From Eubacterium sp. (GTDB lineage: Bacteria; Bacillota; Clostridia; Lachnospirales; Lachnospiraceae), in assembly GCA_017459345.1 (NCBI GenBank), contig JAFUDC010000109.1, positions 1 to 48,650 of the forward strand: a stretch of DNA of 48,650 nucleotides. Direction: 5' to 3'. The notes under the pieces are model-generated. The model was not told the origin of the DNA. It did no database searches and was given only the letters and a program-made list of their open reading frames with translations. The position numbers and the translations under genes are program-made. Within the stretch, counting starts at the first letter, position 1; each line of letters starts with the position of its first letter. Shown piece by piece: positions 21,224-45,278 of this stretch.

Positions 21224-22105
21224 TTATTTAAAGTAATCTGCCAGATAATCTGCATACATCTGGCCTAAATGAGCTGAAGGGCTTTCTTCTTTCCAATAGG
21301 CATAGACATATAGGGGTTCAATTGTCTCGTAAGGGATAGATATGATCCCTTTGGGAAGAGTCGGAGCTTCCTGACGGGGATTCAGTACCAGGGGAGCAAT
21401 CCCCAGGTTCTTCTTAATTGATGTGTACACGGTGGTCAGTTCATTGATGGCAATGGGGATATTGGGCTTCTCATTGATTATGTCGAACTCCTGCCATATA
21501 CTGTAGTAGGGAGGACATCCTGAAAAAATCAGGGGCTGGCCAACCAGGTCGGAAACCTTCAGGGTAACCTTCCTGGCAAGGGGATGATCCTCCTTCATCA
21601 GAACCACTGTCTGAAGCCGAAGTACTTTCCGGTTGGCAAAATCCTCATGCCAGCCAACACAGGCGGATAATCCCAGTTCTGCCCTATCTTCTCCAACTAT
21701 CTTCTTGCAGTTAAAGATTCTGTGCTCTTCCAGCCCCAGCTCAATCTTCGGATACCGCTCTGTAAAGGAGAATGTCGGCCGGGGAGAGAGAAGCTGCACC
21801 AGGCCGATATCCAGCACGACCCTCAGGCGGCCGGTCTCCTCCTGTATCCGCTTTTCTTTGAGATTATCCAGAAGATCATGGTAACTGTCCAGCATTTTCC
21901 TCAGGCAACGGTAAGTCTCCTCCCCTTCTCTGGTAGGAATCAGGCCCTTTTTTGTCCTGACAAAGAGCTCAACGCCCAGATCAGTTTCAAATTTCTGAAT
22001 CACGCGGCTGATATACTGCTGACTGACATAAAGGTGCTCCGCCGCTTTTGATATCTTACGATCCTCATACACCTGAATATAGTACTGCATCTGGTTCAGA
22101 TCCAC
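21224..22105 (-). CDS. LysR-family transcriptional regulator
   Basis: The frame opens at 22177, but the start is placed at a GTG at 22105. An AAAGGAG site lies nine bases before it, and translation then begins M-D-L-N-Q-M-Q-Y-Y, the standard LysR opening. The 293-residue protein has the N-terminal HTH (KISKAAEHLYVSQQYISRVI) and a C-terminal inducer-binding domain. It is divergent from the aldolase-kinase-dehydrogenase operon and shares its 389-bp promoter region, the usual LysR arrangement. It is a second candidate regulator of that operon beside GntR. The inducer is unknown. Confidence 0.85.
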   Translation of the reverse strand: MDLNQMQYYIQVYEDRKISKAAEHLYVSQQYISRVIQKFETDLGVELFVRTKKGLIPTREGEETYRCLRKMLDSYHDLLDNLKEKRIQEETGRLRVVLDIGLVQLLSPRPTFSFTERYPKIELGLEEHRIFNCKKIVGEDRAELGLSACVGWHEDFANRKVLRLQTVVLMKEDHPLARKVTLKVSDLVGQPLIFSGCPPYYSIWQEFDIINEKPNIPIAINELTTVYTSIKKNLGIAPLVLNPRQEAPTLPKGIISIPYETIEPLYVYAYWKEESPSAHLGQMYADYLADYFK

Positions 22106-22494
22106 ACTCATCAACTCCTTTGCTGTAACATCACCGCAATTAATTATAGATAAGGAATTTGTAATATCTATCAGCATCTCTTCATTGCCCGATCATATTC
22201 TATGTACGATTTTACCACATATTCTATATTATTGCATGGTATTTTCTATTAATATAATCAACAATTTACCATCAACTAATCAGTTGTATTGACAGCCCTC
22301 AAAATAGCTGTTTTACATCTGCTCAATAATATGACTATAATAAGACATCATAAGGAACCATAAACCATCTGTTCTAAGTATATTTACTTTAGAACTATTA
22401 TTTTTCTCATGTGTTGTATATACATTATAACACATAAACAAACATAATTGTATCTTAAAAACATTTAATGAAAGAAGAAAGGATGGACACAAGA
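22106..22494. promoter_or_regulatory. Divergent LysR/aldolase promoter region
   Basis: This 389-bp gap has no gene. It contains TTGACA at 22289-22294, followed after 17 nt by a weak TTTACA -10 box, a CAACT-AATC-AGTTG inverted repeat near 22273-22286, and the GntR-type operator at 22414-22425. TATAAC at 22426-22431 directly abuts that operator and could be the -10 box of the aldolase operon. Confidence 0.5.
22414..22425. promoter_or_regulatory. Candidate GntR operator upstream of the aldolase operon
   Basis: TTGTATATACAT contains the perfect 10-bp palindrome TGTATATACA found also at 28972-28987 and 33451-33466. Outer TGTGTT and AACACA arms (22410-22415, 22429-22434) add a second symmetry. TreR-like HutC-subfamily regulators bind TTGTATATACAA-type sites. 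Confidence 0.65.
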
Positions 22495-23217
22495 ATGTAT
22501 GATTTTTCCAAGATGACAAAAAAGGATTTTGGTAAGTTTTTTGATTTTTCCGTACTGCCGAAGCAGACCACAGAGGCTGAGCTGGTAAAGGGATGCCAGG
22601 ACGCCATCGCCTACAACTGTGCTGCATTCTATCCCAATTCCAACTACTGGCTTCCCCTCACTAAGGAACTGCTGAAGGGGTCCGGCGTTCTTGCCGCAAC
22701 AACCTTTGACTTCCCCACAGGTAATGCAACTCCCTACATGAAGGGCAAATTTGCAGAAGAAGCTGTTAAGCTTGGTGCAGAGGCCATGGATATGGTAATG
22801 AATCTCGGTGCCTTAAAGTCCGGACGAATCGATGATGTCAAAGAAGAGCTCCGCCTTGTAAAGGCCGCTGCCGGTGATGATATCCTGACAAAGTGTATTC
22901 TTGAGGTTTGCTATCTTACTGATGATGAGATCAGACAGGCTGCAACCCTCGTAGCCGAAGCAGGATTCAATTATGTAAAGACAGCTTCCGGACAGTTTGA
23001 GGGCCCCACCATGGACCAGTTCCTGGTAATGAAAAATGCCGTTGCCGGATCCAACACCAAGACAAAGGTTGCAGGCGTGAAGTTCCCACGTCCACAGAAC
23101 GCTTATGCTTTCATCATGGCTGGAGCTGATCTGATCGGAACAAGAGCTGCCATCGAGATCCTTGATCATCTGGATATGGCAAGAGAAATCGGCCTGGTTC
23201 CTAAATATGAGGGGTAA
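22495..23217 (+). CDS. deoC: Deoxyribose-phosphate aldolase-family protein (first paralogue)
   Basis: The start is set at 22495 (MYDFSKM) because it aligns with the second paralogue's start MVDLSKM; earlier in-frame ATGs at 22468 and 22483 lack a usable SD. The 240-residue protein has the DERA class I aldolase pattern: D99 in MDMVMN, the Schiff-base Lys K162 in YVKTASGQFEG, and K191 in KVAGVKF at the place of the E. coli K201. The loops after these lysines (GQFEGPTM, PRPQNAY) differ from standard DeoC, so another aldol substrate is likely. It is first in an operon with a second copy, an FGGY kinase and a GldA-type dehydrogenase. Confidence 0.78.
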   Translation: MYDFSKMTKKDFGKFFDFSVLPKQTTEAELVKGCQDAIAYNCAAFYPNSNYWLPLTKELLKGSGVLAATTFDFPTGNATPYMKGKFAEEAVKLGAEAMDMVMNLGALKSGRIDDVKEELRLVKAAAGDDILTKCILEVCYLTDDEIRQAATLVAEAGFNYVKTASGQFEGPTMDQFLVMKNAVAGSNTKTKVAGVKFPRPQNAYAFIMAGADLIGTRAAIEILDHLDMAREIGLVPKYEG

Positions 23218-23310
23218 GCACATCAGATTCGATTGAGACTCCCTCTTCTATAAGGGGGAAAAAGTTCGCTTCCATCAGGTGGAGTCACAATCTTCATCTG
23301 ATGTAGCCTG

Positions 23311-23392
23311 CGGCGCATCGCAGAGTTGCGCAAAGGAAAGCGCATACGCGCTGCGCAACTCGCGCGCAATCGCCAAGGCGATTACGATTGAA
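23311..23392 (+). repeat. Hairpin-rich dispersed repeat between the two aldolase genes
   Basis: The 218-bp spacer contains GAGTTGCGCA (23323-23332) and TGCGCAACTC (23352-23361), a perfect 10-bp stem. A 32-bp block follows (23361-23392) around CAATCGCCAAGGCGATTACG that matches, with three differences, the minus strand at 27937-27968. Base composition is much richer in CG dinucleotides than the surrounding genes, suggesting an inserted mobile palindromic repeat. Confidence 0.6.
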
Positions 23393-23435
23393 TTTCTGAC
23401 AGCTATTGTAAAAAGAATTTTAGAGGAGAAGGCAT

Positions 23436-24155
23436 ATGGTTGATTTATCAAAGATGGATAAGCATTCCATAGGAAAATGCTTTGACTATTCCGTACTTCC
23501 AAAGGATACACAGGAGGAAGCCATCAGAAAGGGCTGCAGGGAGGCAATCGCCTATAATTGTGCAGCATTTTACTGCTCTACTCCCTACTATCTCCCTGTG
23601 GTAGTTGAAGAGCTTGAAGGCAGCGATGTTCTTCCTGCATGCGGTGTCTCATTCCCCTTTGGGGCAACCACCGGGCTGGTTAAGGCCTTTGAAGCCGAGC
23701 AGGCATACAAGCTGGGGGCAAGGGCAATTGATACTACCATGAATATCGGTGCCTTAAAGGATAAAAAATATGATGTGGTCAAACAGGAACTGGATGATTT
23801 TAAGAAAGCAGCCGGTGATGCCCTGACCAAATGCATCCTGGATGTCTGCTTCCTGACAGATGAAGAAATCCAGACCGGATGCAAACTGATCACGGAGGCA
23901 GGAATTGATTACGCCAAAAGCTCCACAGGGCAGTTTGAAGGCCCCACCATGGAACAGGTCCTTATTATGAGAGAAGCCGTAAAAGGAACCAACACCAGGC
24001 TTAAGGTTGCCGGAGTGAAATTCCCTCGTCCCCAGAATGCTTATGTGTTCCTCCGGGCAGGAGTAGATCTCATTGGTACCAGAGCTGCGGTGCAGATCAT
24101 TGATGCATTTGACCAGATGAGAGAAATCGGAGTAATTCCTCCATTCGAGGGATAA
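23436..24155 (+). CDS. deoC: Deoxyribose-phosphate aldolase-family protein (second paralogue)
   Basis: The 239-residue protein is about the same length as the upstream copy and aligns with it throughout. It keeps D99 (AIDTTMNIG), the Schiff-base Lys K161 in YAKSSTGQFEG, and K190 in KVAGVKFPRPQN. Both copies thus look catalytically competent, although they differ at many surface and pocket positions. They may form a hetero-oligomer or act on two substrates. The SD GAGGAG is seven bases before the ATG, and the FGGY kinase gene follows after about 30 bases. Confidence 0.78.
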   Translation: MVDLSKMDKHSIGKCFDYSVLPKDTQEEAIRKGCREAIAYNCAAFYCSTPYYLPVVVEELEGSDVLPACGVSFPFGATTGLVKAFEAEQAYKLGARAIDTTMNIGALKDKKYDVVKQELDDFKKAAGDALTKCILDVCFLTDEEIQTGCKLITEAGIDYAKSSTGQFEGPTMEQVLIMREAVKGTNTRLKVAGVKFPRPQNAYVFLRAGVDLIGTRAAVQIIDAFDQMREIGVIPPFEG

Positions 24156-24186
24156 CAAACAAATTAAGTAAACAGGAGAAGGCAAA

Positions 24187-25731
24187 ATGAAAAAATATGT
24201 AATCGGTATTGACGTAGGAACCACCGGAACCAAGGCCATGGTAGTTGACCTTAAGGGAAATAACCTGGGCAGCAGCTACCGCGATTATCCCTTTATCACC
24301 CCAAAGGATAAATGGGTGGAACTTGATCCGGACAATCTGACAGAACAGGTATTTACCGTAACCGCAGAATCCATCCAGAAATCTCAGGTTGATCCGGCAG
24401 AAATCGCTGCCGTGAGCTTCTCTGTACAGAGATCCTCCTGCCTTCTGGTGGATAAAGACGGTAATGCTTTAAATAACATCATGGTATGGCTGGATACCAG
24501 AGCAGACGAGACCATGGAAGAATTCGGAAGCCTGATCTCTCCGGAATACACAGAAGAGATTTCCGGTATGCCATGCAACTCTATTTTTGCTAACTGCAAG
24601 CTTTTCTGGATGATGAAGAAGACTCCGGATATCTGGGACAAGGCTGCTTACATCTCCACGATCGACAGCTACATCATGAAGAAGTTCGGCGATGGAGAAT
24701 TCTGCATGGATATCAGTTCTGCCCAGACCGGCGGACTGATTGATGTCAGAACCATGGACTGGTGCTATGAGCAGTTCGATAAGATCGGACTCTCCAGGGA
24801 CAAATTACCGAAGCTGGTAAAACCGGGTGAGGTTGTGGGTAAAGTAAATGAGGCCATCATCAGCCGCACCGGCCTTTCCGCCGATACTCTTGTGGTATGC
24901 GGTCTTGGCGACCAGCAGGCAGGTGCTTTCGGCGCAGGCGTTGTGAATAACGGTGATGTGGAAATCACCATCGGAACCGGCGGTTTCGTCATCGCAGGTA
25001 CCAACAATCCGGACTTCAAGAAATTTACAGGTATCATGGTCTCCACCACCCCCAACATTGGAGTCTTTGAGGTAGAAGGCATCCAGAACAGTGGTGCCAC
25101 CTGCTACCGTTGGGCCAAGGAAACCTTCTGTTCCGTGGACAGCCAGATTGCCGAAGATCTGGGTATGGATCCCTTTGACTTCATGGGACAGTATGTAGAG
25201 CAGAGCCGCCCTGGCGCAAACGGACTGATCTTCAGTGCCGCTCTTTTCGGAACCGGTTATCCCACCTGGAACCTGAATGCCAGCGGAGCCTTTGTCGGCA
25301 TGAAAGAAACCCACAAGAAGGGGGACTTCCTCCGGGCCGTTATGGAGGGAATCACCTTAGAAGCCCGCTATATGCTGGAGTCCATGAAGGAAGTTGGCGT
25401 TGATGTCAATCCTGTGATCACCATCACCGGCGGCGCCACCAAGTCTCCCATCTGGAGACAGATCATCGCTGATGTCATGGGAGCAACCTGCAGAACATTG
25501 GATGTATCCGATGCTCCTCTGATCGGTGTAGCCAGCCTGGCAGCCATCGGCGCAGGTTTGTTCGAAAACCGTGAAGAAGCCGTTGCCAATATGGTTCATT
25601 ACAAGGACGAAGTTGCACCGATTGAAGAAAATGTCAAGATCTACGATAAGGTATTCGACATTTACAAGACCATTTATCACAGCTTAAATGACAGCGGAGT
25701 ATATACTGCACTGAACAGTCTCTACGATTAA
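24187..25731 (+). CDS. FGGY-family carbohydrate kinase (xylulokinase-like)
   Basis: The 514-residue protein opens with GIDVGTTGTKAMVVDLKG, the phosphate-binding loop of FGGY kinases. It carries VSFSVQRSSCLLVD and MVWLDTRADE in the sugar-binding domain and the C-terminal ITITGGATKSPIWRQIIADV signature. Length and motifs are closest to xylulokinase/gluconokinase-type members. It would phosphorylate a ketose or polyol for cleavage by the neighbouring aldolases. The gene lies about 30 bases after the second deoC-like gene and 20 bases before the GldA-like gene, with AGGAG as SD. The exact sugar cannot be read from sequence. Confidence 0.82.
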   Translation: MKKYVIGIDVGTTGTKAMVVDLKGNNLGSSYRDYPFITPKDKWVELDPDNLTEQVFTVTAESIQKSQVDPAEIAAVSFSVQRSSCLLVDKDGNALNNIMVWLDTRADETMEEFGSLISPEYTEEISGMPCNSIFANCKLFWMMKKTPDIWDKAAYISTIDSYIMKKFGDGEFCMDISSAQTGGLIDVRTMDWCYEQFDKIGLSRDKLPKLVKPGEVVGKVNEAIISRTGLSADTLVVCGLGDQQAGAFGAGVVNNGDVEITIGTGGFVIAGTNNPDFKKFTGIMVSTTPNIGVFEVEGIQNSGATCYRWAKETFCSVDSQIAEDLGMDPFDFMGQYVEQSRPGANGLIFSAALFGTGYPTWNLNASGAFVGMKETHKKGDFLRAVMEGITLEARYMLESMKEVGVDVNPVITITGGATKSPIWRQIIADVMGATCRTLDVSDAPLIGVASLAAIGAGLFENREEAVANMVHYKDEVAPIEENVKIYDKVFDIYKTIYHSLNDSGVYTALNSLYD

Positions 25732-25751
25732 TCAAAGAAAAGGGGTATCAT

Positions 25752-26867
25752 ATGAAAAAAGTGATCAGAATGCCTGGTAAGTATATCCAGGGTGAAGGTG
25801 TTATCCAGGATGTGGGCGAATATGCAAAACCACTGGGAACAAAACCAGCCTTAGTATGGGGAAGCCATACCCGCGCTGCTGTCGCAGAGCCGGTTTTAGA
25901 GTCCCTGAAAAACCATGAAATCAATGAATATTTTGAGATTCATTTTAATGGGGAATCTTCTCATGAAGAGATCGCCCGCCTCCAGGAAGAAGCAAAATCC
26001 GCAGGCTGCGACTATGTCATCGGCTTCGGCGGCGGAAAAGCACTGGATTCCTCCAGAGCCATGGCAAGCAGGATGGGCGTGCGCTACATGATCGTTCCCA
26101 CCATCGCTTCCAATGATTCACCTACATCCGCCTGTGCAGTTTATTATAACGAAGAACACGAATGCATCGGCAATGAGATGTTTGCCTTCAACCCGGATGT
26201 TGTGCTTATCGATACAGGAATCATTGTCAAGGCTCCGGCCCGCTACATGGCTGCAGGAATCGGCGATGCTCTGGCTACATGGCTTGAGGCAAACTCTTCC
26301 TACAAGAACCGGGGTGCCGTATTTGCCGGCGGCGGCTCCACCATGACAGCACAGATGATGTCCAAGCTCTGCTTTGATACCATCATGGGCTATGGAAAAG
26401 AATGTATCGAAGCGGTGAAATGCAATGTCGTTACCGCGGCTGTGGAAAAAGTAGTGGAATCCACCACTCTTCTCTCCGGTATTGGCTGGGAGAGCGGCGG
26501 ACTGACCTGCGCCCATGCAGTGGCCAACTCCCTTCCGGTTCTTCACGAAACCCACGACTTCCTTCACGGGGAGAAGGTTTCCTTCGGTATCATTGTTCAG
26601 CTGATGCTGGATGAGGATATGACCCAGGAAGAGATCTACAGGATCGTTGACTTTGAGATTGATATGGGTCTTCCGGTGACCTTTGATGATCTTGGTCTCA
26701 AGGACCAGTCTTTAGAAAGAATGCAGAAGTTCGGCGAACATGCTGTTAAGAACGAGACCTACATCCAGACCATGTACTTCCCGGTAACCGCATCCTCCAT
26801 GGCCGGAGCCATGATGGCTGCCAACTCCTTAGGGAAGAGAAGAAAAGCCCTGAAAGGGATTAAATAA
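25752..26867 (+). CDS. gldA: Glycerol dehydrogenase-family (GldA-like) polyol dehydrogenase
   Basis: The 371-residue protein has the GldA length and motifs: GGGKALDSSRAMA at 93-105, PTIASNDSPTSACAV at 116-130, and zinc ligands D172 (GIGDALATW), H255 (CAHAVAN) and H272 (DFLHGEKVSFG). GldA enzymes oxidise glycerol to dihydroxyacetone with NAD and can run in reverse. Here the context (kinase plus aldolases) suggests oxidation of a polyol to the ketose that the kinase uses, or reduction of a dihydroxyacetone-like product. It is the last gene of the plus-strand operon and ends at a strong hairpin. Confidence 0.85.
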   Translation: MKKVIRMPGKYIQGEGVIQDVGEYAKPLGTKPALVWGSHTRAAVAEPVLESLKNHEINEYFEIHFNGESSHEEIARLQEEAKSAGCDYVIGFGGGKALDSSRAMASRMGVRYMIVPTIASNDSPTSACAVYYNEEHECIGNEMFAFNPDVVLIDTGIIVKAPARYMAAGIGDALATWLEANSSYKNRGAVFAGGGSTMTAQMMSKLCFDTIMGYGKECIEAVKCNVVTAAVEKVVESTTLLSGIGWESGGLTCAHAVANSLPVLHETHDFLHGEKVSFGIIVQLMLDEDMTQEEIYRIVDFEIDMGLPVTFDDLGLKDQSLERMQKFGEHAVKNETYIQTMYFPVTASSMAGAMMAANSLGKRRKALKGIK

Positions 26868-26886
26868 GCCATCCTGTGATAATACA

Positions 26887-26936
26887 GGCATAATAATAAC
26901 AGGGACTCCAGCAGGAGCCCCTGTTATTATTATGCC
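26887..26936. terminator. Bidirectional terminator, 23-bp stem
   Basis: Arms 26887-26909 and 26914-26936 pair with one mismatch around a four-base loop, with AATAATAA/TTATTATT blocks giving T-rich ends. It separates the GldA-like gene from the convergent PHP gene. Confidence 0.85.
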
Positions 26937-26974
26937 AAAAAGCTGCACAGTTCTGAGTAGTTACATATTATTAA

Positions 26975-27913
26975 TTATCGGTTCAGCATGGCCACAAGTC
27001 TTTCATTAGCCAGAAATTCTTCCATGCTGATACCGCAGTCCCCGATCTCTCTGGGGTTCTTCACACCCTTCTTGCCATCAGCATGATAATCAGACCCGCC
27101 TGAGATGAAGAGGCGGTCTCCGTAATACTGGATTACTTCATCCTTAATCTCTTTTTTTGACAGTTTTCCAAAGTAGCTGGTCTTATCATATGTGTAAGAA
27201 GCCTCGATTCCGTCAAGTCCTGCCTCAATCAGATGCTCGATAAAGACGGACCTATGTATGATCTTTCCTTTATAGGTAACCGGCTCGGTTACCAGGTAAG
27301 GATGGGCCATGATGACATAACCGCCGGTGCGGTGTGCCTCTTTGATTACTGTCACAGCATCCGGTTTTTCTCTCTTGATGGCCAGGTCTCTGGCTTCCTT
27401 GACATAGAGCTTGGCATCGCTCCAGGAATCAAAGTATCCTTTCCTTGCCATCAGCTCAAAAAGCATCTTCTTCTGTACCATACTCTCCGGAACCGGATGT
27501 CCGTCATTATCCAGGACCTCCTGCCAGTCCACAGGCATTCCTTTTTCGGTCAGCCTTTCTGCAAGCTTTTTATAGCTTCCCACCTTGCTCTTGATGGTAA
27601 AATCATCCAGTTCCTTAAAAAAGGGATCATCCCAGTCACAGCCGAAGCAGACCAGATGGGTGTCATCAATCCAGGTCTCGCAGGAGACCTCGATTCCCAG
27701 CATGACCTCAACGCCCTGCTCCCTGGCCCATTCCTGGATGTCTCTCTCTACTCCGTCAATAGTCACCGTCCTGGGCGGAATCACATCGTGGTCCGTGATG
27801 GCACAGACCTTGACGCCCCGCTCCTTTGCATGGAGGATAAACTCCTCCGGTGTGTCACTTCCGTCTGACCTTGTGGTGTGTCCGTGTAAATCCACCTCAT
27901 GATTTGCTAACAT
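26975..27913 (-). CDS. PHP-domain phosphoesterase
   Basis: The 312-residue protein has PHP metal-binding motifs in order: VDLHGHTTRSDG (H10, H12, D17), AITDHD near residue 40, GIEVSC, AHPYL, and SGGSDYHADGKKG near residue 275. PHP proteins are phosphoesterases, including nucleotide and histidinol phosphatases and TrpH-like enzymes. It follows the class II aldolase gene after 128 bases in the same direction and is probably in its operon. A role in dephosphorylating a pathway intermediate is possible but unproven. The SD AGGAGG is seven bases before the ATG. Confidence 0.82.
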   Translation of the reverse strand: MLANHEVDLHGHTTRSDGSDTPEEFILHAKERGVKVCAITDHDVIPPRTVTIDGVERDIQEWAREQGVEVMLGIEVSCETWIDDTHLVCFGCDWDDPFFKELDDFTIKSKVGSYKKLAERLTEKGMPVDWQEVLDNDGHPVPESMVQKKMLFELMARKGYFDSWSDAKLYVKEARDLAIKREKPDAVTVIKEAHRTGGYVIMAHPYLVTEPVTYKGKIIHRSVFIEHLIEAGLDGIEASYTYDKTSYFGKLSKKEIKDEVIQYYGDRLFISGGSDYHADGKKGVKNPREIGDCGISMEEFLANERLVAMLNR

Positions 27914-27936
27914 TTTCCATCCTCCTATCTCCCCTG

Positions 27937-27968
27937 TTCAATTGTAATCGCCTTGGCAATTGCACGCG
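27937..27968 (-). repeat. Second copy of the CAATxGCCAAGGCGATTAC repeat
   Basis: Read on the minus strand, 29 of 32 bases match 23361-23392. The core AATxGCC/GGCGATT is itself nearly palindromic. It lies inside the aldolase-PHP spacer, upstream of the PHP SD, much as the first copy lies upstream of the second deoC-like gene. Confidence 0.6.
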
Positions 27969-28041
27969 ATTTGCGCGACGCATCGATGTGTCTTCCTTAA
28001 TATCTGTGTGGAACAAACTTTTTTCTGACAGAGGAAATCCA

Positions 28042-28887
28042 TCAAAATTCATCCTTTAATCCTGAGAATACTGCAAGATGCTTCTTGACCACATCCTTCA
28101 CGGCCTCAAATACCTTCGTATCAAATGGGATCGGTGCATATTTCTCTCCGGACTCCACAAGCTCTCTTGTGGTATCCAGATAGGCATTCTTCACGATTGT
28201 TGATATATTCACCTTCCTGCCGCCAAGCTTGATCAGCTTGATGAATGTCTCTGCAGACAGACCGGAGCCGCCATGAATTACAACCGGAGTATCTTCCTTG
28301 CCAAGCTGTTCCACAAGGTCGAAGTCCAGTTTTGGCACACCATGATATACACCGTGGGCGGTGCCGATGGCCGGAGCGATGGCATCCACATCGGAACCCT
28401 TGATAAATGTCATGGTCTCATCGTAGCCAGCCTTGACTTCGTCCGAAGCTGAGATTTCTTCTTCCACACCGGAAATAATACCGATCTCACCCTCGATGGC
28501 AACACCCTTTGCATGGGCATAATCAGCAACTTCCTTTGTATTGGCGATATTCTCCTCCAGAGGAAGGTGGGAGAAATCCATCATAACGGAATCCCATCCT
28601 GCATCCACACAGGCCTTGCCAAGCTCGATGCTTCGGCAATGATCAAGGTGAATACTAACTATAATCCCCGCATCCTTTCTTGCCGCATCGATCATGGCGT
28701 ATAACTTCTCTGCCCCAAAATGCTCTACCGTTCCGGCGGAAGTCTGCAGGATCAGATTCACACCCAGCTCTTTAGCCGCCTGGATGGCTGCATCGGCAGT
28801 AAGATAATTGAAAATGTTAACCGCACCCACTGCAATCTTCTTCTCTTCTGCATCTTTAAGAACCTTTAAAAATCTGTTATCTGTCAT
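28042..28887 (-). CDS. Class II (zinc) ketose-bisphosphate aldolase
   Basis: The 281-residue protein is a class II fructose/tagatose-bisphosphate aldolase homologue. It has the catalytic Asp and zinc His in IHLDH (D82, H83), EGEIGIISGVEE at 132-143, the second zinc ligand H178 in GTAHGVYHG, H205 in VIHGGSG, and the phosphate-binding KVNIST at 225-230. These enzymes split ketose 1,6-bisphosphates or a related ketose phosphate to DHAP and an aldehyde. The gene is led by a promoter with a GntR-type operator in its spacer and is followed by the PHP gene. GatY/KbaY, FbaA and DHAP-dependent variants cannot be separated by eye. Confidence 0.85.
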   Translation of the reverse strand: MTDNRFLKVLKDAEEKKIAVGAVNIFNYLTADAAIQAAKELGVNLILQTSAGTVEHFGAEKLYAMIDAARKDAGIIVSIHLDHCRSIELGKACVDAGWDSVMMDFSHLPLEENIANTKEVADYAHAKGVAIEGEIGIISGVEEEISASDEVKAGYDETMTFIKGSDVDAIAPAIGTAHGVYHGVPKLDFDLVEQLGKEDTPVVIHGGSGLSAETFIKLIKLGGRKVNISTIVKNAYLDTTRELVESGEKYAPIPFDTKVFEAVKDVVKKHLAVFSGLKDEF

Positions 28888-28961
28888 TGTAATATCCTCC
28901 TTATTTATCTCACGATTGATTATAAGTGCTTAATATGGCTTAGTTTTCATTTGTTATCTTA

Positions 28962-28990
28962 AGTGTATCATACTTGTATATACATGTCAA
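28962..28990 (-). promoter_or_regulatory. Class II aldolase promoter with embedded GntR operator
   Basis: On the minus strand, TTGACA (28990-28985), a 17-nt spacer and TACACT (28967-28962) form a promoter. The operator ACTTGTATATACATGT (28972-28987) lies within the spacer and touches the -35 box. Binding there would block RNA polymerase, so the site predicts repression. Confidence 0.75.
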
Positions 28991-29071
28991 CACTATTTTT
29001 GTTTTTTATATATTTTATGATTCTGATTATTGAAGTTTGATTGAACAATGAGGAATAAGAATCAATAAAAA

Positions 29072-29119
29072 ACACTGCTTTCTCCGGAAGTGTCTGTACA
29101 ACTCCCCTGAAAACAGTGT
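29072..29119 (-). terminator. Terminator of the gntR gene
   Basis: On the minus strand an ACACTG-TTTTC arm (29119-29109) pairs with GAAAG-CAGTGT (29082-29072), and TTTTTTATT follows. It lies directly downstream of the GntR gene. Confidence 0.65.
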
Positions 29120-29138
29120 CTGGTTCTAATACTTAGAT

Positions 29139-29873
29139 TTATTCATAATTCAGCCGAATCTTGAATTTATCCCCCCGGAATATTACCTTGGTATACTCAT
29201 AAGGCCTGTCCTCCTCTGAGAACAGTTCATCCTTCAGCAGCAGGAGCGGGTGTCCCTTGTCAACATTCAGCAAGGATGCCTCCTCCTTATCCGCCGCAAC
29301 AGACTCCAGGGTTTCTGAAACCCGCTTTCTCTGCAGGCCATAGTTCTGATTCATGATAACACAAAGCTGCTCCTTCTCAAGAAGCTCCGGGGTAAGCCCC
29401 TGGCTATATCTTTGCGGGATATAGGAGACATGAATACTGACGGGACCATCCTTGATGGAACGCACTCTTTTGATCATGAAAACCGGGGTGCCTTCCTCCA
29501 GATTCAGATGCTTTGCAACATTATGGTCACAGGCAACCTCTCTGCACTCTATGGTTTTGGTGGAAACCTCGTAGCCCATCTGTTCCAGCTGTTCTCTGAC
29601 TCCCACATAATAGAGACTCTGAGCCTCTATCTTCTGCTGTGTCACATAGGTGCCCTTCCCCTGAACCCGGTAAAGCTTATCTTCCTTGACCAGATCAAGG
29701 AGAACCGACCGTACAGTCATCCGGCTAAGCCCATACTGGGCACTGAGCTGATTCTCCGACGGGATCTTATCATCCGGCTTCCACTCACCGGAGCTGATCT
29801 TCTCCTCAACTATGTCACGGAATTGCTGATATAGTGGTTTGGGGTTATTTCTATCTAATGGAAACTCCTGCAT
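29139..29873 (-). CDS. GntR-family (HutC subfamily) transcriptional regulator
   Basis: The 244-residue protein has an N-terminal winged helix (PLYQQFRDIVEEKI; IPSENQLSAQYGLSRMTVR; YRVQGKGTYV) and a C-terminal UTRA ligand-binding domain, from about residue 90, of the HutC subfamily. Members such as TreR and NagR bind TTGTATATACAA-type or related sites and release DNA on binding sugar phosphates. Three TTGTATATACA sites lie at the promoters of the flanking carbohydrate operons, and a weaker one (CTGTATAGACA, 30026-30040) lies upstream of this gene. It is therefore the likely regulator of the whole block, including itself. Confidence 0.88.
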   Translation of the reverse strand: MQEFPLDRNNPKPLYQQFRDIVEEKISSGEWKPDDKIPSENQLSAQYGLSRMTVRSVLLDLVKEDKLYRVQGKGTYVTQQKIEAQSLYYVGVREQLEQMGYEVSTKTIECREVACDHNVAKHLNLEEGTPVFMIKRVRSIKDGPVSIHVSYIPQRYSQGLTPELLEKEQLCVIMNQNYGLQRKRVSETLESVAADKEEASLLNVDKGHPLLLLKDELFSEEDRPYEYTKVIFRGDKFKIRLNYE

Positions 29874-29913
29874 AGCTCTCTCCTTTATAAACGCAAGTTA
29901 TTATCTACTTAAA

Positions 29914-29976
29914 TTGTCGGGTGCCCGATTTGGCATCGGTTCCTGGGCAGCACTCACGGACGTAATAGACTCCTTT
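29914..29976 (-). repeat. Dispersed hairpin repeat, copy C
   Basis: TTGTCGGGTGCCCGATTTGGC matches copy B closely at one end, and CACGGACG-AAT-GACTCCTT matches copy A at the other. The hairpin is less perfect here. It lies in the leader region of the GntR gene. Confidence 0.5.
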
Positions 29977-30025
29977 TATCTATTCGTAATATTTATATTT
30001 CATCCTATCCTGTCATAAACAAAAA

Positions 30026-30040
30026 ACCTGTATAGACAAG
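30026..30040. promoter_or_regulatory. Weak GntR-type operator upstream of gntR
   Basis: ACCTGTATAGACAAG keeps most positions of ACTTGTATATACATG. It lies about 150 bases before the gntR start and could give autoregulation. Confidence 0.4.
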
Positions 30041-30089
30041 ATAACTCATAATTTATTATACTTACAATGAAATCATTTGTCAAGAAAAT

Positions 30090-30137
30090 AACAGGCGGAA
30101 GGAAAAGGGCCGGTATGGTCCTTTTCCTTCCGTCTGT
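30090..30137 (-). terminator. Terminator of the transaldolase-transketolase operon
   Basis: A 22-bp stem (30090-30111 / 30117-30137) with two G-U-compatible pairs and a five-base loop follows the transketolase C-subunit gene. The GGAAGGAAAAGGGCC arm is almost the same as in the terminator at 15860-15904. Confidence 0.8.
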
Positions 30138-30152
30138 TAGTGATTAATAGAG

Positions 30153-31088
30153 TTATCCCACATACTCCTTTACAGATTCGGCAATTCCCTTTGCATCCAG
30201 CTTGTAATAAGCCAAAAGCTCACTGTAATTGCTGCTTGTTGTGGCATAGATATTCGGGATACCTAGACGTTTTACTGTCACGTCCTTCATGTCACTTAAG
30301 ACTTCTGTGACCATGGAACCCATACCGCCATTCACATAGTGTTCTTCCACCGTCACTACCTTTTTGGTCTGGCTGGCACTGGTACGAATCAGTTCTTCAT
30401 CAAGAGGGAGTACGGTGGGAAGGCCGATGATCTTTGAATGGATGCCGGCTTCCTCTAAGATCTTGCTGGCCTCAAGTACATCCTTGGTGCAGGATCCGGT
30501 GGAGATGATGGTCACATCCTCACCCTCTTCCAGGATAGTTCCCTTTCCGATTTCGAAGGGTCTTCTCTCAAAGAGCTGCGGGATCTTGGGGTTACCTATT
30601 CTCATATAGACAGGGCCTTCGTACTCAATCATGGCTTTGACCGCTTCTTCAATCTCAACGCCATCCTGGGGAGCAAGGATAGTCATACCGGGAATCAGGC
30701 GCATAAGGCCAAAGTCATCAAGGCTCTGATGGGTTACACCCAGGTCAGAGTAAGTGATACCGCAGTTTCTGCCCACAATCTTAACGTTCTGCTTCATATA
30801 GCCCGTATCATTTCTCACCATCTCATAGGGACGGGCTGTCACGAAGGGAGCGATGGCACAGAATACCGGAATCTTACCCGTGGTTGCCATACCGGCTGCC
30901 ATGCCGACTGCGCCCTGTTCCATGATGCCGCACTCAAAATATCTTTCCGGGAACTGCTCGATAAAGTCAGCAAAGCCGGAGCTCTTTCCGCTGTCAGCTG
31001 AGAATACAACGACCTTATCGTTGGTCTTTGCCACATCCGTCACTGCTTTTCCAAATGTTTTTCTTGGATCCATCAAATCACCGATCAT
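30153..31088 (-). CDS. Transketolase, C-terminal subunit
   Basis: The 311-residue protein carries the pyrimidine-binding and C-terminal domains of a split transketolase. FECGIMEQGAVGMAAGMA provides the conserved cofactor-activating Glu, and DLGVTHQSLDDFGLMR and a late IGLPTVLPLDEE segment follow. It begins one base inside the stop of the N-subunit gene (TAATG), so the two are translationally coupled and form a heteromeric enzyme. It would transfer two-carbon ketol units between sugar phosphates. The split form is common in Clostridia and archaea. It is the last gene of the GntR-site operon. Confidence 0.9.
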   Translation of the reverse strand: MIGDLMDPRKTFGKAVTDVAKTNDKVVVFSADSGKSSGFADFIEQFPERYFECGIMEQGAVGMAAGMATTGKIPVFCAIAPFVTARPYEMVRNDTGYMKQNVKIVGRNCGITYSDLGVTHQSLDDFGLMRLIPGMTILAPQDGVEIEEAVKAMIEYEGPVYMRIGNPKIPQLFERRPFEIGKGTILEEGEDVTIISTGSCTKDVLEASKILEEAGIHSKIIGLPTVLPLDEELIRTSASQTKKVVTVEEHYVNGGMGSMVTEVLSDMKDVTVKRLGIPNIYATTSSNYSELLAYYKLDAKGIAESVKEYVG

Positions 31089-31945
31089 TATCCCAGCACC
31101 TCCTTGGTAAGTCTGTCCACTTCTTCCTGCATCTCTTTTTCTGCCTGGTCCAAAAGCTCCGGCGTTGCATTCCAGAAATGGAAGCCTGCCTGATTCTCTC
31201 CGAAAGATAATCCTTTTGCCTTTACTGTTGAGCAGAGGATCATGGTTGGCTTGCCTCTTTCCTCCGGAATGGAATCAAGGGCATACAGTATCTGATCCAT
31301 ATCATTGCCGTCGATGTATTTCACTGCCCAGCCGAAGGATTTGAATTTCTCATCGACGGGTCTCATATCCATAACTTTCGTTACGTCACCGCTAATCTGC
31401 AGGCCATTGTTATCCACAAATACCACCAGGTTGTCAAGGCCGAACTTTGCAGCTGCTGCCGCCGCTTCCCAGTTGGAACCTTCCGGCAGCTCGCCATCTC
31501 CTGTGATGGCATAAACCTTATAGTCCTTCTTATCAAGCTTTGCGCTCATGGCCATACCGGCAGCGATGGATAATCCATGACCGAGAGCCCCTGTATTGGC
31601 CTCCACGCCTGGAAGCTTATGCATATCCGGATGTCCCGGAATTTTGGATGCCAGCTTGCCATAGGTATCAAGGATTTCTTTATCAAAGAAGCCTCTCTCT
31701 GCAAGAACCGCATACTGGGCAAGGCATTTATGACCGGCGGAAAGGAGAAAGCGATCGCGGTCCTCCATCTTAGGGTTCTCCGGATCAACATTCATGGTAT
31801 CAAAGTATAATGCAGTCACTATATCCAGGGCGGATAAAGCACCACCCACATGTCCATGTCCGCCTGCTCTTACCATACGCAGGACATTCTGTCTGCACTT
31901 AGCAGCCGTAAGCTTCAGGCTGGCTGTCCTTTTTTTATCTGCCAT
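31088..31945 (-). CDS. Transketolase, N-terminal (thiamine diphosphate-binding) subunit
   Basis: The start is set at 31945 (MADKKRTASLKL), with AAAGAGG nine bases upstream; the open frame extends to 32014 and would overlap the transaldolase gene. The 285-residue protein has the thiamine diphosphate motif GDGELPEGSNWEAAAAAAKF-x-FVDNN. It also has GGHGHVGGALSALDIVTALYF and LGHGLSIAAGMA blocks of transketolase N-domains. It pairs with the downstream C subunit. With the transaldolase gene 46 bases upstream it makes a compact non-oxidative pentose-phosphate module, or a dedicated ketol-transfer step in the local pathway. Confidence 0.9.
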   Translation of the reverse strand: MADKKRTASLKLTAAKCRQNVLRMVRAGGHGHVGGALSALDIVTALYFDTMNVDPENPKMEDRDRFLLSAGHKCLAQYAVLAERGFFDKEILDTYGKLASKIPGHPDMHKLPGVEANTGALGHGLSIAAGMAMSAKLDKKDYKVYAITGDGELPEGSNWEAAAAAAKFGLDNLVVFVDNNGLQISGDVTKVMDMRPVDEKFKSFGWAVKYIDGNDMDQILYALDSIPEERGKPTMILCSTVKAKGLSFGENQAGFHFWNATPELLDQAEKEMQEEVDRLTKEVLG

Positions 31946-31991
31946 TTTTATAACCTCTTTTCTTGTTGATGACTGGCTCTCAAAGCATTCA

Positions 31992-33293
31992 TCAGCTCTG
32001 GCCGTTAGCTGCATTCATAAATCTTCTCTGATAGCTGATTACCTGGTTGGTAGATGTAAATCTTGCCAGATAGTTGGGTTCAGCTGTGATGACAACCTTC
32101 TTGTTCATATCCTGGAATTCCTCCTCGGCAAGCAGCTTGTCGATATCCGGATAGTTATAAGGTCCTTCCATGGAGCAAACGATGAGACGGGTGTCCTTTA
32201 AGTTGCTGTTCCTCAGGACTCTTAAGTTATGGCGCATGCCGTCAAGGCCGTCGCTGCCCTGGGCATCATTAAAGTGACGATACTTAATAAGGTCTTTGCC
32301 AAACTTCAGGACTTCTGCAAGTGCCATGTCCCTATCAGACTCTGTATAATAATCATTGGCAATGAGATAATCTCTTAAGTTCTCCAGAACGGCGGTATCA
32401 TTGGATGCCTCATACTGACTCAGATACTTCTGGATGTTGGTGGACTGGACCAGACGGTGTCTTAAGAAGGTATTGATGAAGTAAGGTCTTGCCTGCAATG
32501 CCATCAGGGTCTGGAAGGGCTCAAACATCAGGGTGAAGTTCACTCTGTAGCCTTCCTGCTGCAGCTTCAATGCCAGGTTATGTCCCACCAGGGCCTTCCC
32601 TGTCTCTACCTGGTCCGGTCTCTTGTCAAGCTTCTTGTTTCCGGTGAGGAGCTGGCCTACGTTCTCTGCTGTGACCGGTCCCACATGGGGAACCTTCACA
32701 ACCAGACGGTACTTGGAGAACATCTCCTCAAATTTCTTAACCTCTTCCAGGATCTTGTTGAAGTCTTTCTCAAATGGGTTATTCAGCTCCACGCTGATAT
32801 CGCAGCCAGGGCCTAAGATCCTGGCGATCTCAGCCATAACCTCGTCACGGGTCTTATACTTATTGCCCACATTTGCCTTGGGGTTGTTGATGAAAAGATC
32901 ATAAATGATACCGGGATTGCAGGTCAGGTTGGAAATCAGAGGACTGATGGGCTCTACCTCATACGGGTTTGCGCTGTCTGCGGAGAAAAGCACGTTGGTC
33001 GGACGCTCGATCCCGTTCCTGTCATAGGAGATATCACGAACCAGGTCCACTCTTAACACCTGGTCTTTATCCAGTGTCAGCTCTCTCCTAAATCCTGCAG
33101 GGGTCTCCCCCTCAGGAGTGTTAAATGTATTGATAACATCCTTAAACTGGTCTGTAACACCAACATACTTTGCCACGGAGGAAAGATCCTTATAATCCTC
33201 CATGCTCACCGGCATGTTTTTCACACGTTCTACAAGGCTTTCTTCGCCTCTTACCGTTTCCAGTCCAAGAGAGTTTACATTCACGTTAATCAT
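31992..33293 (-). CDS. Transaldolase-family protein, long form
   Basis: At 433 residues this is well above the usual 215-320 of transaldolases, but the family motifs are present: FSADSANP with D106, SNLTCNPGIIYDLF (TTNP-like block), the Schiff-base Lys K200 in VVKVPHVGP, and GYRVNFTLMFEPFQTLMAL. The extra residues are mainly at the N-terminus (about 1-95) and in the C-terminal third. It would transfer dihydroxyacetone units. It is first in an operon with split transketolase behind a promoter carrying a GntR operator. The length and divergence suggest a specialised substrate. Confidence 0.75.
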   Translation of the reverse strand: MINVNVNSLGLETVRGEESLVERVKNMPVSMEDYKDLSSVAKYVGVTDQFKDVINTFNTPEGETPAGFRRELTLDKDQVLRVDLVRDISYDRNGIERPTNVLFSADSANPYEVEPISPLISNLTCNPGIIYDLFINNPKANVGNKYKTRDEVMAEIARILGPGCDISVELNNPFEKDFNKILEEVKKFEEMFSKYRLVVKVPHVGPVTAENVGQLLTGNKKLDKRPDQVETGKALVGHNLALKLQQEGYRVNFTLMFEPFQTLMALQARPYFINTFLRHRLVQSTNIQKYLSQYEASNDTAVLENLRDYLIANDYYTESDRDMALAEVLKFGKDLIKYRHFNDAQGSDGLDGMRHNLRVLRNSNLKDTRLIVCSMEGPYNYPDIDKLLAEEEFQDMNKKVVITAEPNYLARFTSTNQVISYQRRFMNAANGQS

Positions 33294-33628
33294 TTACTTT
33301 GTCCTCCTTTTTCATTCTTACTTTGTAATTATTCAGCAGACCTGAGTAGTTAACTTATTATTGCTTATCAAGAACGCTCGCCCCGAATCTATGTGTCCAT
33401 ATTCAATCGAAATCATCTGTCCTTGTTTTGCTGTGACTGTATCTTATCATACTTGTATATACATGTCAATATGTTTTTTGTTATTTTTTCTGTAATATAC
33501 AATCAATTGATTGAATTCACCTAAACAGAATCCTCCTATTTATTATGGTACTTTTGCCATATTCACTTGAATAATCTGGGATATAATGAGAATAACTGTA
33601 AGAATATATAATGAATAAGGAGGTTGCC
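33294..33628. other. Divergent region between transaldolase and old-yellow-enzyme genes
   Basis: The 335-bp gap holds the transaldolase promoter/operator at 33441-33469 and is otherwise AT-rich with no gene. A short block near 33400-33412 resembles the end of the second dispersed repeat (GATTxCGATTGAA on the minus strand), too short to call. A clear promoter for the plus-strand gene was not found. Confidence 0.4.
33441..33469 (-). promoter_or_regulatory. Transaldolase operon promoter with embedded GntR operator
   Basis: On the minus strand, TTGACA (33469-33464), a 17-nt spacer and TAAGAT (33446-33441) form a strong promoter. The operator ACTTGTATATACATGT (33451-33466) occupies the spacer, base for base the same 16-mer and placement as at 28972-28987. 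Confidence 0.8.
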
Positions 33629-34734: not shown

Positions 34735-35277
34735 TCAAAGGAACCTGGCATAGATCTTCTTAAGCTTTTCCGGCATGGCTTCCATGAGCAGACCTGCCAT
34801 CTCCTCGGGACTGCACAGGATATCCCCACAGGACCACTTCACTGTGGCATAGACAGATTCCTCGCAGTGCATATCCAGAAGCATCTTCTCCTCTTCACTA
34901 AATGTATCTACGCCTGCTTTCGCAGCCAGATTCAGATAGAGCCTGTATATCACCCGATGGGTGTAGCGGTGAAGGCTCTCGTAATCATGAGACTGGAAGG
35001 CCTGGGAGAACAGGTCCTTCTCCGGCTCCATGATACGAAACTTGGAAAGCAGGGTTCGATGGAGGGAGAAGTCCTCATCAAACTGCCGGTAGCTGTCGTG
35101 GATAATGCCCTCAAGATACTTATTCACCAGATCATATTTGTTCTCACAGCATCGATAGAAGGTCTGCCGGCTTCTGCCGGCAGTCTCCACGATATCACTG
35201 ACAGGTATTTTTTCGAAGGATTCTTTTTTCAGGCATTCCTTCAATGCCCCGATAAACAGAAGTATATTATTTTTCAT
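34735..35277 (-). CDS. TetR-family transcriptional regulator
   Basis: The frame opens at 35334, inside rhaD. The start is placed at 35277 (MKNNILLFIGALKECL), which overlaps the rhaD stop by 11 bases and gives a standard TetR opening. The 180-residue protein has an N-terminal HTH (FEKIPVSDIVETAGRSRQTFYR) and a helical C-terminal domain. A separate SD is weak, so translation is probably coupled to rhaD. As the last gene of the rhamnose operon it may regulate that operon or a neighbour; TetR members with this C-terminal type also regulate dihydroxyacetone use in lactic acid bacteria. The target is not known. Confidence 0.82.
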   Translation of the reverse strand: MKNNILLFIGALKECLKKESFEKIPVSDIVETAGRSRQTFYRCCENKYDLVNKYLEGIIHDSYRQFDEDFSLHRTLLSKFRIMEPEKDLFSQAFQSHDYESLHRYTHRVIYRLYLNLAAKAGVDTFSEEEKMLLDMHCEESVYATVKWSCGDILCSPEEMAGLLMEAMPEKLKKIYARFL

Positions 35278-36094
35278 ATAAGAACTGTTCCGGAAGCTCC
35301 ACCTTAAAGTCTTTAGCCAAAGCCCTGAATTCATCCGGCTGTATGGTCTGTCTCTTCTCGGATGTCATGGACAGGGTCTTGACCAGAATCTCAGCGGATT
35401 TCTCTACAGTGTGCATGAGACCGAATGTAAGATCAAAGTCCTCACCGGAGCAGAACATACCATGATGAGCCCAGATGGCCACATCATACTTCTTCATCAG
35501 CTCACTGGTAGCAACGGCAATATCTCTTCCGCCCGGTACCATCCAGCCAACCACGCCGACTCCGGCGGGGAATACCACCGGACACTCTGTAGCCATCTCC
35601 CAGAGTTCTCTGGTAAAGGCCTCATCGGTAAGGGGCAGAACAAATGTGAGGGCGATAACATTGGTGGTGTGGGCATGATAGATCACGCGGTGTGCTCCAC
35701 CGGAGGCAATCTTCTTCACTTCGTGGTTCATCAGGTGGGAGGGAAGCTCGCTTGTAGGTCTTCCGCCGTTCACAAGGCCCCAGAGGATACGGTACCTGCT
35801 TCCGCTTTCATCGATCTCGATGATGGAGCAGGAATCCTCCGGATCCAGGATCACATTGCGGAAATACTTACCGCTGCCGGTCACCATAAAGTACTCTCCG
35901 GAAAGCTCCGGAACCTCTGTTCCAATCTCTCTCCAGTCATCAGTTGCGGTCAGTTCATCCTTAATCTCTTCAATCTCTTCTGCCTTGATGCGGTAGGATA
36001 AGTTTCCGCCGTTTCTCTCATGCCAGCCCTGCTCCCATCCATCATTACACATACGGATAAAACCCTGCACAAATTTTGCATCTAATACCTTCAT
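35267..36094 (-). CDS. rhaD: Rhamnulose-1-phosphate aldolase
   Basis: The start is set at 36094, with AAGGAG eight bases upstream (MKVLDAKFVQGF); the frame opens at 36118. The 275-residue length matches E. coli RhaD (274). The catalytic Glu E116 (PTSELPSH) and zinc ligands H140, H142 (YHAHTTN) and H211 (WAHHGMF) fall one residue from the E. coli positions E117, H141, H143 and H212. It splits L-rhamnulose 1-phosphate to DHAP and L-lactaldehyde. It lies directly after rhaB. No lactaldehyde reductase or dehydrogenase is adjacent. Confidence 0.93.
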   Translation of the reverse strand: MKVLDAKFVQGFIRMCNDGWEQGWHERNGGNLSYRIKAEEIEEIKDELTATDDWREIGTEVPELSGEYFMVTGSGKYFRNVILDPEDSCSIIEIDESGSRYRILWGLVNGGRPTSELPSHLMNHEVKKIASGGAHRVIYHAHTTNVIALTFVLPLTDEAFTRELWEMATECPVVFPAGVGVVGWMVPGGRDIAVATSELMKKYDVAIWAHHGMFCSGEDFDLTFGLMHTVEKSAEILVKTLSMTSEKRQTIQPDEFRALAKDFKVELPEQFLYEK

Positions 36095-36141
36095 CTGTTT
36101 TTCTCCTTGTTTTTCCAAATCGTTATCGTTCGTTATATTTC

Positions 36142-37536: not shown

Positions 37537-37559
37537 TATTATTACCCTTTCTTCTATAA

Positions 37560-37871
37560 TCAATCCAGATGAAATACAGTCTTAAGGTCCACACTGACCG
37601 GGCTGTTATCGGGATTGGTTTCCATGATGTCCGCCATATAATCCCACCACTTGCGGTTGATGGCAGTATCTGCAGACGCAGACCATTTTTCTTCATCTTC
37701 TATCTCGATGTATCCGAACAGGGTCAAGGTCTCCTTATCCAGAAAGATGGTATAATTCTTTCCGCCGTACTCATGGATCATGTCTTTCATCTCAGGCCAG
37801 AGCAGATTATGACGCTTCTCATACTCCTCCTCACAGCCCGCAAATACTTTCATCTTAAAACCTTTGATCAT
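37560..37871 (-). CDS. rhaM: L-rhamnose mutarotase
   Basis: The 103-residue protein matches RhaM over its whole length: KRHNLLWPEM with the catalytic His H21, GGKNYTIFLDK with Y40, the KWWDYM aromatic block and the NPDNSPVS ending. It interconverts alpha- and beta-L-rhamnose before isomerisation. It sits between the isomerase and rhaB genes in the same operon with a GAGGA SD. Its presence supports L-rhamnose, rather than L-fucose, as the substrate of the locus. Confidence 0.92.
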   Translation of the reverse strand: MIKGFKMKVFAGCEEEYEKRHNLLWPEMKDMIHEYGGKNYTIFLDKETLTLFGYIEIEDEEKWSASADTAINRKWWDYMADIMETNPDNSPVSVDLKTVFHLD

Positions 37872-37944
37872 ATTTAGTATCTTCCTCTTCTATTCCTTTT
37901 TTGAGTCTCCTGATAAATATTCAACTCCCGGAATCAAAACATTC

Positions 37945-39363: not shown

Positions 39364-39417
39364 AATATAACCTCCTGACATAATACTTGTTAAAGGGTCG
39401 TCCTGTTTTTTATCACA

Positions 39418-39471
39418 ATCTTATCATCGGAATTTTGAGCAAAAAAGGGGAAGATTTTTTGAACAAAGGGA
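39418..39471 (-). promoter_or_regulatory. Rhamnose operon promoter and candidate response-regulator site
   Basis: On the minus strand, TAAGAT (39423-39418) is a possible -10 box without a good -35, typical of an activated promoter. An A/C-rich element (39471-39433: AACTCCC, then CAAAAAATCTTCCCC and TTTTTTGCTCAAAA) covers the -35 region. A very similar element lies at the same distance upstream of the ABC transporter operon (47843-47888). Confidence 0.5.
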
Positions 39472-39520
39472 GTTTTTTCTTTTTTGTAATTGGCGCGTGA
39501 CAACTGGTACTATTTGTTCC

Positions 39521-39550
39521 TTGACTTTACATTTCCTCTCACGTTATCAT
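39521..39550 (+). promoter_or_regulatory. Promoter of the two-component system genes
   Basis: TTGACT (39521-39526) and TATCAT (39545-39550) with an 18-nt spacer lie about 90 bases before the response-regulator start, in the gap shared with the divergent isomerase operon. Confidence 0.45.
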
Positions 39551-39638
39551 GAGACTGGATAAATGTATGTTTTAAACTCCGACTTTCTCCGGAAGGAGAA
39601 AATACTTTGTGTACAGCAGAATAACAGGCAGGATACAT

Positions 39639-43021: not shown

Positions 43022-43030
43022 AAAAAAAAC

Positions 43031-44229: not shown

Positions 44230-44268
44230 GTTACATTCTCCTTTCATACTTGGATATATTTAAAGGCG

Positions 44269-45276: not shown

Positions 45277-45278
45277 AA

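Follow-up and report, generated by a model that had tools for sequence, protein, structure and literature searches.

What, if anything, ties together the aldolase, transketolase and transaldolase operons that lie around a gntR gene on contig JAFUDC010000109.1 of Eubacterium sp. (Lachnospiraceae; GenBank assembly GCA_017459345.1)? The initial annotation of this stretch, positions 1 to 48,650 of the contig and here called the window, had proposed that the encoded GntR regulator represses three operons at once through a shared palindrome, making 11 kb a single inducible system. Our analysis supports that interpretation, which proved largely right but too narrow: with a probability of about 0.82, a HutC-type GntR protein represses several sugar-phosphate enzyme operons in two clusters through palindromes in promoter spacers, with relief by a sugar phosphate. 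This is a known kind of switch in a real, conserved regulon that is larger than first proposed.

Operators and promoters in the window

A pattern search of the window placed the 16-mer ACTTGTATATACATGT exactly at both positions where it had been reported. In each case it fills, on the minus strand, the 17-bp spacer between a TTGACA -35 box and a -10 box, as described, so that the class II aldolase promoter reads TTGACA-TGTATATACAAGTATGA-TACACT and the transaldolase promoter TTGACA-TGTATATACAAGTATGA-TAAGAT. The candidate operators, each found by pattern and matrix, and the regulator gene are as follows.

28972..28987, minus strand: operator ACTTGTATATACATGT in the class II aldolase-PHP promoter; 17-bp spacer, TTGACA from 28990, -10 box TACACT ending at 28962
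33451..33466, minus strand: operator, the same 16-mer, in the transaldolase-transketolase promoter; 17-bp spacer, TTGACA...TAAGAT
30026..30041, minus strand: weak operator TCTTGTCTATACAGGT, just downstream of the gntR promoter
22414..22425, plus strand: probable operator TTGTATATACAT; the first DeoC-like gene begins, as listed, 42 bp further on
29139..29873, minus strand: predicted GntR repressor of the HutC/UTRA subfamily, 244 amino acids (Pfam GntR and UTRA); N41, R51 and G72 (DNA) and R136/R138 (phosphate) assigned by comparison with NagR

The palindrome consists of a 12-bp core within the 16-bp consensus ACTTGTATATACAAGT. Allowing up to three mismatches on both strands, the window holds five matches to the 16-mer; 100 shuffles averaged 0.30 and never reached five. 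A 16-position matrix with the consensus ACTTGTATATACAAGT, built from 17 sites of relatives with the own genome left out, gave 28974 and 33453 (26.0 each), 30028 (14.5) and 22414 (13.1) as its top four over 48,650 bases, followed by a fifth at 9.8; the 17 sites were hand-picked for core match, so that the matrix is no independent discovery. Across 100 dinucleotide shuffles of the window, scores of 13 or more averaged 0.09, the maximum was 19.1, and no shuffle had four at or above 13. The core GTATATAC of the three 12-mer sites in the window is predicted to be of the HutC type, as had been suggested, for it matches the HutC operator consensus, a GTMTAKAC palindrome with 4 nt between GT and AC (given in a passage of PMC4494728).

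The weaker copy noted before gntR is likewise present, with three mismatches and the third-best matrix score in the window. It follows the gntR promoter (TTGACA-17-TATAAT, 30083-30055, a 12/12 match), and the same-genus genomes G011, G016 and G023 have sites with 0-1 mismatch upstream of gntR; autoregulation through the 30026-30041 site appears probable from these sequences. An inverted repeat at 30089..30139 (minus strand; 23-nt arms, 5-nt loop) lies between the transketolase operon and gntR and is a possible terminator.

Two unlinked clusters in one genome

Over the whole genome (G000; 2.96 Mb, 188 contigs), the exact 16-mer occurs three times, each time at a promoter of this enzyme set. The third copy, C108:40344-40359, lies between a second gene for TAL433, a 433-aa transaldolase-like protein, and a DeoC-like gene, in a cluster comprising four DeoC paralogues, an FGGY kinase, a PEP-hydrolase-like pair and an iron-sulfur aldo/keto reductase. 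Because this copy stands on another contig before a DeoC-type gene of a paralogous cluster, the regulon exceeds 11 kb, and the single system first envisaged, whose inducibility we infer, was drawn too narrowly to take in the unlinked C108 cluster. Six PF01791 genes were found in the genome, all of them in the window or on C108; a second transketolase lies elsewhere, on contig C161. The exact 12-mer WTGTATATACAW occurs six times, four of them at promoters of this set, once inside a DnaG-like frame (C26) and once at a contig start without a core gene (C73). The palindrome is thus not equally common at unrelated promoters of this genome, where 3/3 exact 16-mers and 4/6 exact 12-mers fall at set promoters. 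None of these six exact sites was seen before a transporter gene. UTRA genes were found twice only, as the window GntR and on contig C156.

On L015 (7433-9450), a PEP-hydrolase-like protein stands beside a further copy that carries a fused AraC-type DNA-binding domain, and relatives of this pair occur in L053 and L082.

Conservation in related genomes

Sequences up to 300 bp upstream of 44 leader genes were taken from loci reached by GntR homology, the window not included, and 10-mers were counted de novo with no motif given. The commonest before core leader genes was TGTATATACA (10/44, against 4/158 other open reading frames [ORFs]), and the runners-up overlap it. Sites with at most one mismatch stand within 300 bp of 11 of the 44 leaders and 4 of the 158 other ORFs (Fisher p = 1.2e-5), the latter total being blurred by ORF calling from longest frames, which is poor in the G+C-rich loci L054, L055 and L059. 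These four sites precede one dihydroxyacetone-kinase gene, one relative of the PEP-hydrolase-AraC protein, and two ORFs that share their intergenic stretch with a gntR or FbaII (class II aldolase) site. With the core first in the de novo count and the sites enriched at leaders, the palindrome is conserved beside gntR orthologues. A larger promoter set, biased in that it includes loci fetched by the site, has the exact site at 20/67 leaders, against 0 in 100 shuffles.

Within the genus, GntR orthologues of at least 64% identity occur, among the matches listed, in 6 of 24 genomes, own included. The 25-mer TTGACATGTATATACAAGTATGATA is present with up to three mismatches in all six and in none of the 18 without an orthologue, and the reversed control gave 0; with the own genome left out, the figures are 5/5 against 0/18 (p about 3e-5, calculated by hand on related genomes that are not independent). 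FbaII orthologues (E <= 1e-60) occur in the same six genomes and in G001. That genome retains FbaII-PHP (67/62%); no GntR orthologue was detected in it (best 24%, among the matches listed), and no operator stands before its FbaII gene, the best matrix score in its 8 kb being 11.9. TAL433 occurs in 4/6 of the GntR genomes and 0/18 of the others, one 18-bit match in G014 being discounted. Exact 12-mers in the six GntR genomes fall at promoters of this gene set in 15 of 23 cases (G000 4/6, G002 2/5, G011 1/3, G016 1/2, G017 4/4, G023 3/3), one G017 site preceding a HAD gene that follows TAL433. In G024, which belongs to another genus, 6 of 11 sites were inspected, and all six stand before DeoC, FGGY or transketolase genes; the exact 12-mers of G080 and G083 were inspected save one in each genome, and those of G086 save at least two. 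The 25-mer at up to three mismatches is found in 9/80 genomes altogether; across 200 family genomes it is absent from 192, occurs at up to two mismatches only in G000 and G024, and in six of the eight positive genomes has a sole match at three mismatches with the core altered each time. This comparative evidence argues strongly for GntR as the predicted regulator of these sites.

Two arrangements in relatives add to the picture of the sites themselves. In Petroclostridium (L056 4611-4652) the operator core lies inside a 42-bp inverted repeat, cgagctatgttatacATGTATATACATgtataacatagctcg, upstream of FbaII-PHP, and in a same-genus locus (L079 8931-10742) a promoter-operator in the interval that separates gntR from the divergent Dak2 and Dak1 genes for dihydroxyacetone kinase points to the kinase genes.

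Several observations weigh against the proposed GntR regulon. Beside GntR orthologues, 33 of the 44 leaders have no site with at most one mismatch within 300 bp, and in both actinomycete loci, which have GntR and FbaII relatives, no site was found. Shared descent confounds the co-occurrence within the genus, and the 18 genomes without a detected orthologue include several incomplete ones. Outside the genus the 25-mer turns up in G024 (2 mismatches), G061 and G073 (3 each), and the best GntR match of G024, among those listed, is a 38% fragment. Taken alone, the 12-mer is unspecific in distant genomes (exact copies at this gene set: Petroclostridium 1/10, with 9 inspected; Breznakiella 1/3). About 5.5 chance matrix scores of 13 or more are expected per genome, the site at 22414 is outscored by two off-target genome sites (16.5, 17.9), and the DeoC operon has no promoter comparable to the other two, lacking TTGACA and an extended -10 in register.

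The DeoC operon and competing explanations

At the DeoC operon the earlier description stands in part: the third copy of the palindrome is present at 22414-22425, but the -10 box that it was said to abut is unconvincing. The best sigma-70-like match is TTTACA-18-TATAAT at 22312-22341, and such matches number 3, against a shuffle mean of 3.1. A second regulator gene points away from the operon.

21224..22177, minus strand: regulator of LysR type, transcribed away from the DeoC operon (layout; Pfam HTH_1 and LysR_substrate both exceed their cut-offs)

Its start at 22177 is 290 bp from the DeoC frame. The 22414 site is the least certain of the three because it has no matching promoter, a divergent LysR gene nearby and two higher-scoring off-target sites; its sequence suggests that it probably serves as an operator. 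GntR could be limited to the two exact-promoter operons, C108 and gntR, with the DeoC operon under LysR and the 22414 match due to chance. The matrix score of 13.1 against 26.0, the lack of a promoter in register and the divergent gene fit this account, which we nevertheless consider unlikely: the 12-mer core is exact and close before the gene, the expectation for such scores is only 0.09 per window, and DeoC paralogues elsewhere have exact upstream sites (DeoC_c on C108, DeoC-FGGY in G080, and G024). The LysR-type protein is a possible second, local regulator, and dual GntR/LysR control of the DeoC operon is plausible. Repression of three operons by GntR, as originally put forward, is thus supported by the comparative data as a prediction, with the DeoC operon its least certain member.

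We regard it as very improbable that another HutC-type regulator binds the palindromes and that the neighbouring GntR has a different target. Petroclostridium (L133) and Breznakiella (L136) do have sites of this type next to GntR genes other than this one, but the sole other UTRA gene of the genome adjoins nucleoside-deoxyribosyltransferase and ADP-ribosylglycohydrolase genes on C156, a contig without an exact 12-mer, which makes its product unlikely as the responsible factor; moreover, throughout the genus the sites accompany the window GntR, and G001 has none before FbaII.

Among 35 listed promoter rows (34 distinct sites), 13 share TTGAC or TTGAT, a 17-bp spacer and a TG before the -10 box (extended) in one register, the first base of the 12-mer being the last base of the -35 box; the remaining 22 keep the core without a complete -35/-10 frame. 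Since TTGAC is the -35 box and TATG the extended -10, part of the 16-mer identity is promoter sequence, and apparent identity in the conserved 25-mer is inflated by the same elements, but it is scarcely credible that no regulator is involved and that the repeated 16-mer arose by chance around a core promoter or by the copying of one: the core is kept without a -35/-10 frame at G017 TKn, G024 TKn, G082 and G084, the 25-mer is missing from most of the family, and the unrelated flanks of the three own-genome 16-mers, only 28-38% identical, rule out a recently copied promoter.

The GntR protein and a proposed mechanism

Both domains of the window GntR score over cut-off (PF00392, 67.2 bits; PF07702, 119.4 bits), which gives it the domain composition of the HutC subfamily. 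Its closest solved relative by sequence is YvoA/NagR of Bacillus subtilis (PDB 4u0v, E 2.1e-33, residues 6-238; also 2wv0), a GntR/HutC repressor of N-acetylglucosamine use that likewise joins a winged helix to a UTRA domain, and the DNA-binding domains align without gaps. N41, R51 and G72 correspond to NagR Arg38, Arg48 and Gly69, and R136/R138 to the phosphate-binding Arg133/Arg135; in an alignment of 18 GntR sequences R51 and G72 are invariant and N41, R136 and R138 nearly so. As passages of PMC4333415 describe it, NagR reads G-5 with Arg38 and G-4 with Arg48, with Gly69 as an anchor, and Arg133/Arg135 help to hold the phosphate of glucosamine-6-phosphate, the effector swinging the DNA-binding domains away. 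Arg48, Gly69, Arg133 and Arg135 are all kept in the window protein, whereas Arg38 is replaced by Asn41 and the operator carries T in place of G at -5, with G at -4 and a half-site TTG replacing GG. Judged from sequence, T at -5 fits the replacement of Arg by Asn41; in HutC regulators Asn at that position leans weakly to A/T, without significance, according to part of PMC4494728. By analogy with NagR, R136/R138 would fit a sugar-phosphate inducer. The targets differ: NagR acts on nag genes, whereas here they would be aldolases, transketolase and transaldolase.

We propose that 29139-29873 encodes a HutC-type GntR repressor, probably a dimer, which would bind ACTTGTATATACAAGT-like palindromes, lying at the main promoters between -35 and -10, and so shut out RNA polymerase; repression by spacer occupancy is suggested because of the position of the sites. 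GntR would control, at the least, the class II aldolase-PHP and transaldolase-transketolase operons and the unlinked C108 DeoC cluster; control of its own gene is very probable, and that of the DeoC-DeoC-kinase-GldA operon is probable. A sugar phosphate, probably a pathway intermediate, may bind the UTRA domain and release GntR, a form of relief proposed because of the homology with NagR.

Genes and enzymes of the window

Pfam and NCBIfam profiles uphold the earlier gene labels with small changes.

22468..23217, plus strand: DeoC-like aldolase 1 (Pfam, NCBIfam, alignment); true start probably 22495, judged from paralogue N-termini
23436..24155, plus strand: DeoC-like aldolase 2 (Pfam, NCBIfam, alignment)
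24187..25731, plus strand: sugar kinase of the FGGY family; scores below the cut-off of its best NCBIfam model, xylulokinase
25752..26867, plus strand: glycerol-dehydrogenase-type iron alcohol dehydrogenase, GldA-like, over the NF006941 cut-off
26975..27913, minus strand: PHP-domain protein (Pfam)
28042..28887, minus strand: class II aldolase of ketose-bisphosphate type, FbaII (Pfam, NCBIfam)
30153..31088, minus strand: transketolase C-terminal half (Pfam, NCBIfam)
31088..32014, minus strand: transketolase N-terminal half (Pfam, NCBIfam)
31992..33293, minus strand: TAL433, 433-aa transaldolase-like protein (partial Pfam TAL_FSA, Foldseek)

The deoC labels hold in so far as both window proteins exceed the TIGR00126 equivalog cut-off (141.9 and 153 against 117.3 bits), but compared with the one canonical DERA aligned (G005) they are 32-35% identical and differ in both phosphate loops, AGGVKSR and IGTSSA becoming AGVKFPRP and IGTRAA. 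They keep the catalytic Asp and two Lys, at positions that we take to be those of the family. On sequence comparison, the window 'deoC' genes are a divergent paralogue family. Six DeoC-type paralogues, 37-70% identical, lie at 22468-24155 and L015 1590-10183.

TAL433 matches TAL_FSA at 40.6 bits (cut-off 27) over profile positions 122-167 of 285 only, and has no NCBIfam match; among solved structures, sequence comparison gave nothing better than E 0.34. With its predicted model (predicted local distance difference test score 64.9), the 50 Foldseek matches listed are mostly transaldolases and fructose-6-phosphate aldolases. K200, presumably the Schiff-base Lys, is invariant in 8 sequences. The TAL433 family, with members at 31992-33293 and L015 5008-6309, is about twice the length of the small transaldolases matched by fold.

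Farther along, 35267-47776 holds Aldolase_II, FGGY kinase and isomerase-like genes, which we read as of rhamnose/fucose type, and after them an AraC-domain response regulator, a histidine kinase and an ABC transporter whose binding protein is of sugar type.

Comparison with known systems

TreR of Bacillus subtilis, a HutC-subfamily regulator, has an operator of the TTGTATATACAA type. The trehalose-repressor model TIGR02404 matches the window GntR at 98.3 bits, far below its cut-off of 211.95, which leaves the protein outside that family, and the neighbours examined here included no recognisable trehalose gene. No open-access paper was found for GntR together with TTGTATATACAA.

The sulfofructose transketolase/transaldolase pathways of gut Firmicutes likewise place a TAL-fold enzyme in the same gene set as a transketolase, as described in parts of PMC11659671 and PMC11968277, and SF-TAL is among the TAL433 fold matches listed. 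Those parts hold no counterpart of the DeoC, FGGY, PHP and FbaII genes found here; 'deoC' is absent from the main text of PMC11659671, and sulfonate-specific genes were not searched for in our data. The sulfoquinovose pathway was considered for its transketolase and transaldolase, a comparison made through part of the literature and not by homology search.

Pathway and significance

The gene set consists of enzymes that would interconvert C3-C6 sugar phosphates, with FGGY kinases as a possible entry, and in relatives RpiB-type isomerases, dihydroxyacetone kinase subunits and HAD phosphatases are also encoded close to the sites. The substrate could be a pentose, tetrose, polyol or deoxy/branched sugar. 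We tentatively suggest an undescribed Lachnospiraceae-type catabolic route for a C4/C5 (or branched/deoxy) sugar phosphate, itself the inducer, that might run through divergent DeoC-type aldolases, TAL433, a dedicated split transketolase and FGGY kinases, joined in relatives by RpiB-type isomerases and dihydroxyacetone kinases. Among the titles and abstract beginnings listed from the open-access literature, none dealt with this gene set, a search that is no proof of the regulon being unpublished. Our findings provide predicted operators and a predicted regulator for a group of aldolase, transaldolase and transketolase genes whose pathway cannot be read from sequence labels alone, and they bring two unlinked clusters together as one system. 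The promoter-operator common to these operons also offers a handle on the substrate, as the inducing sugar is probably the one that is broken down.

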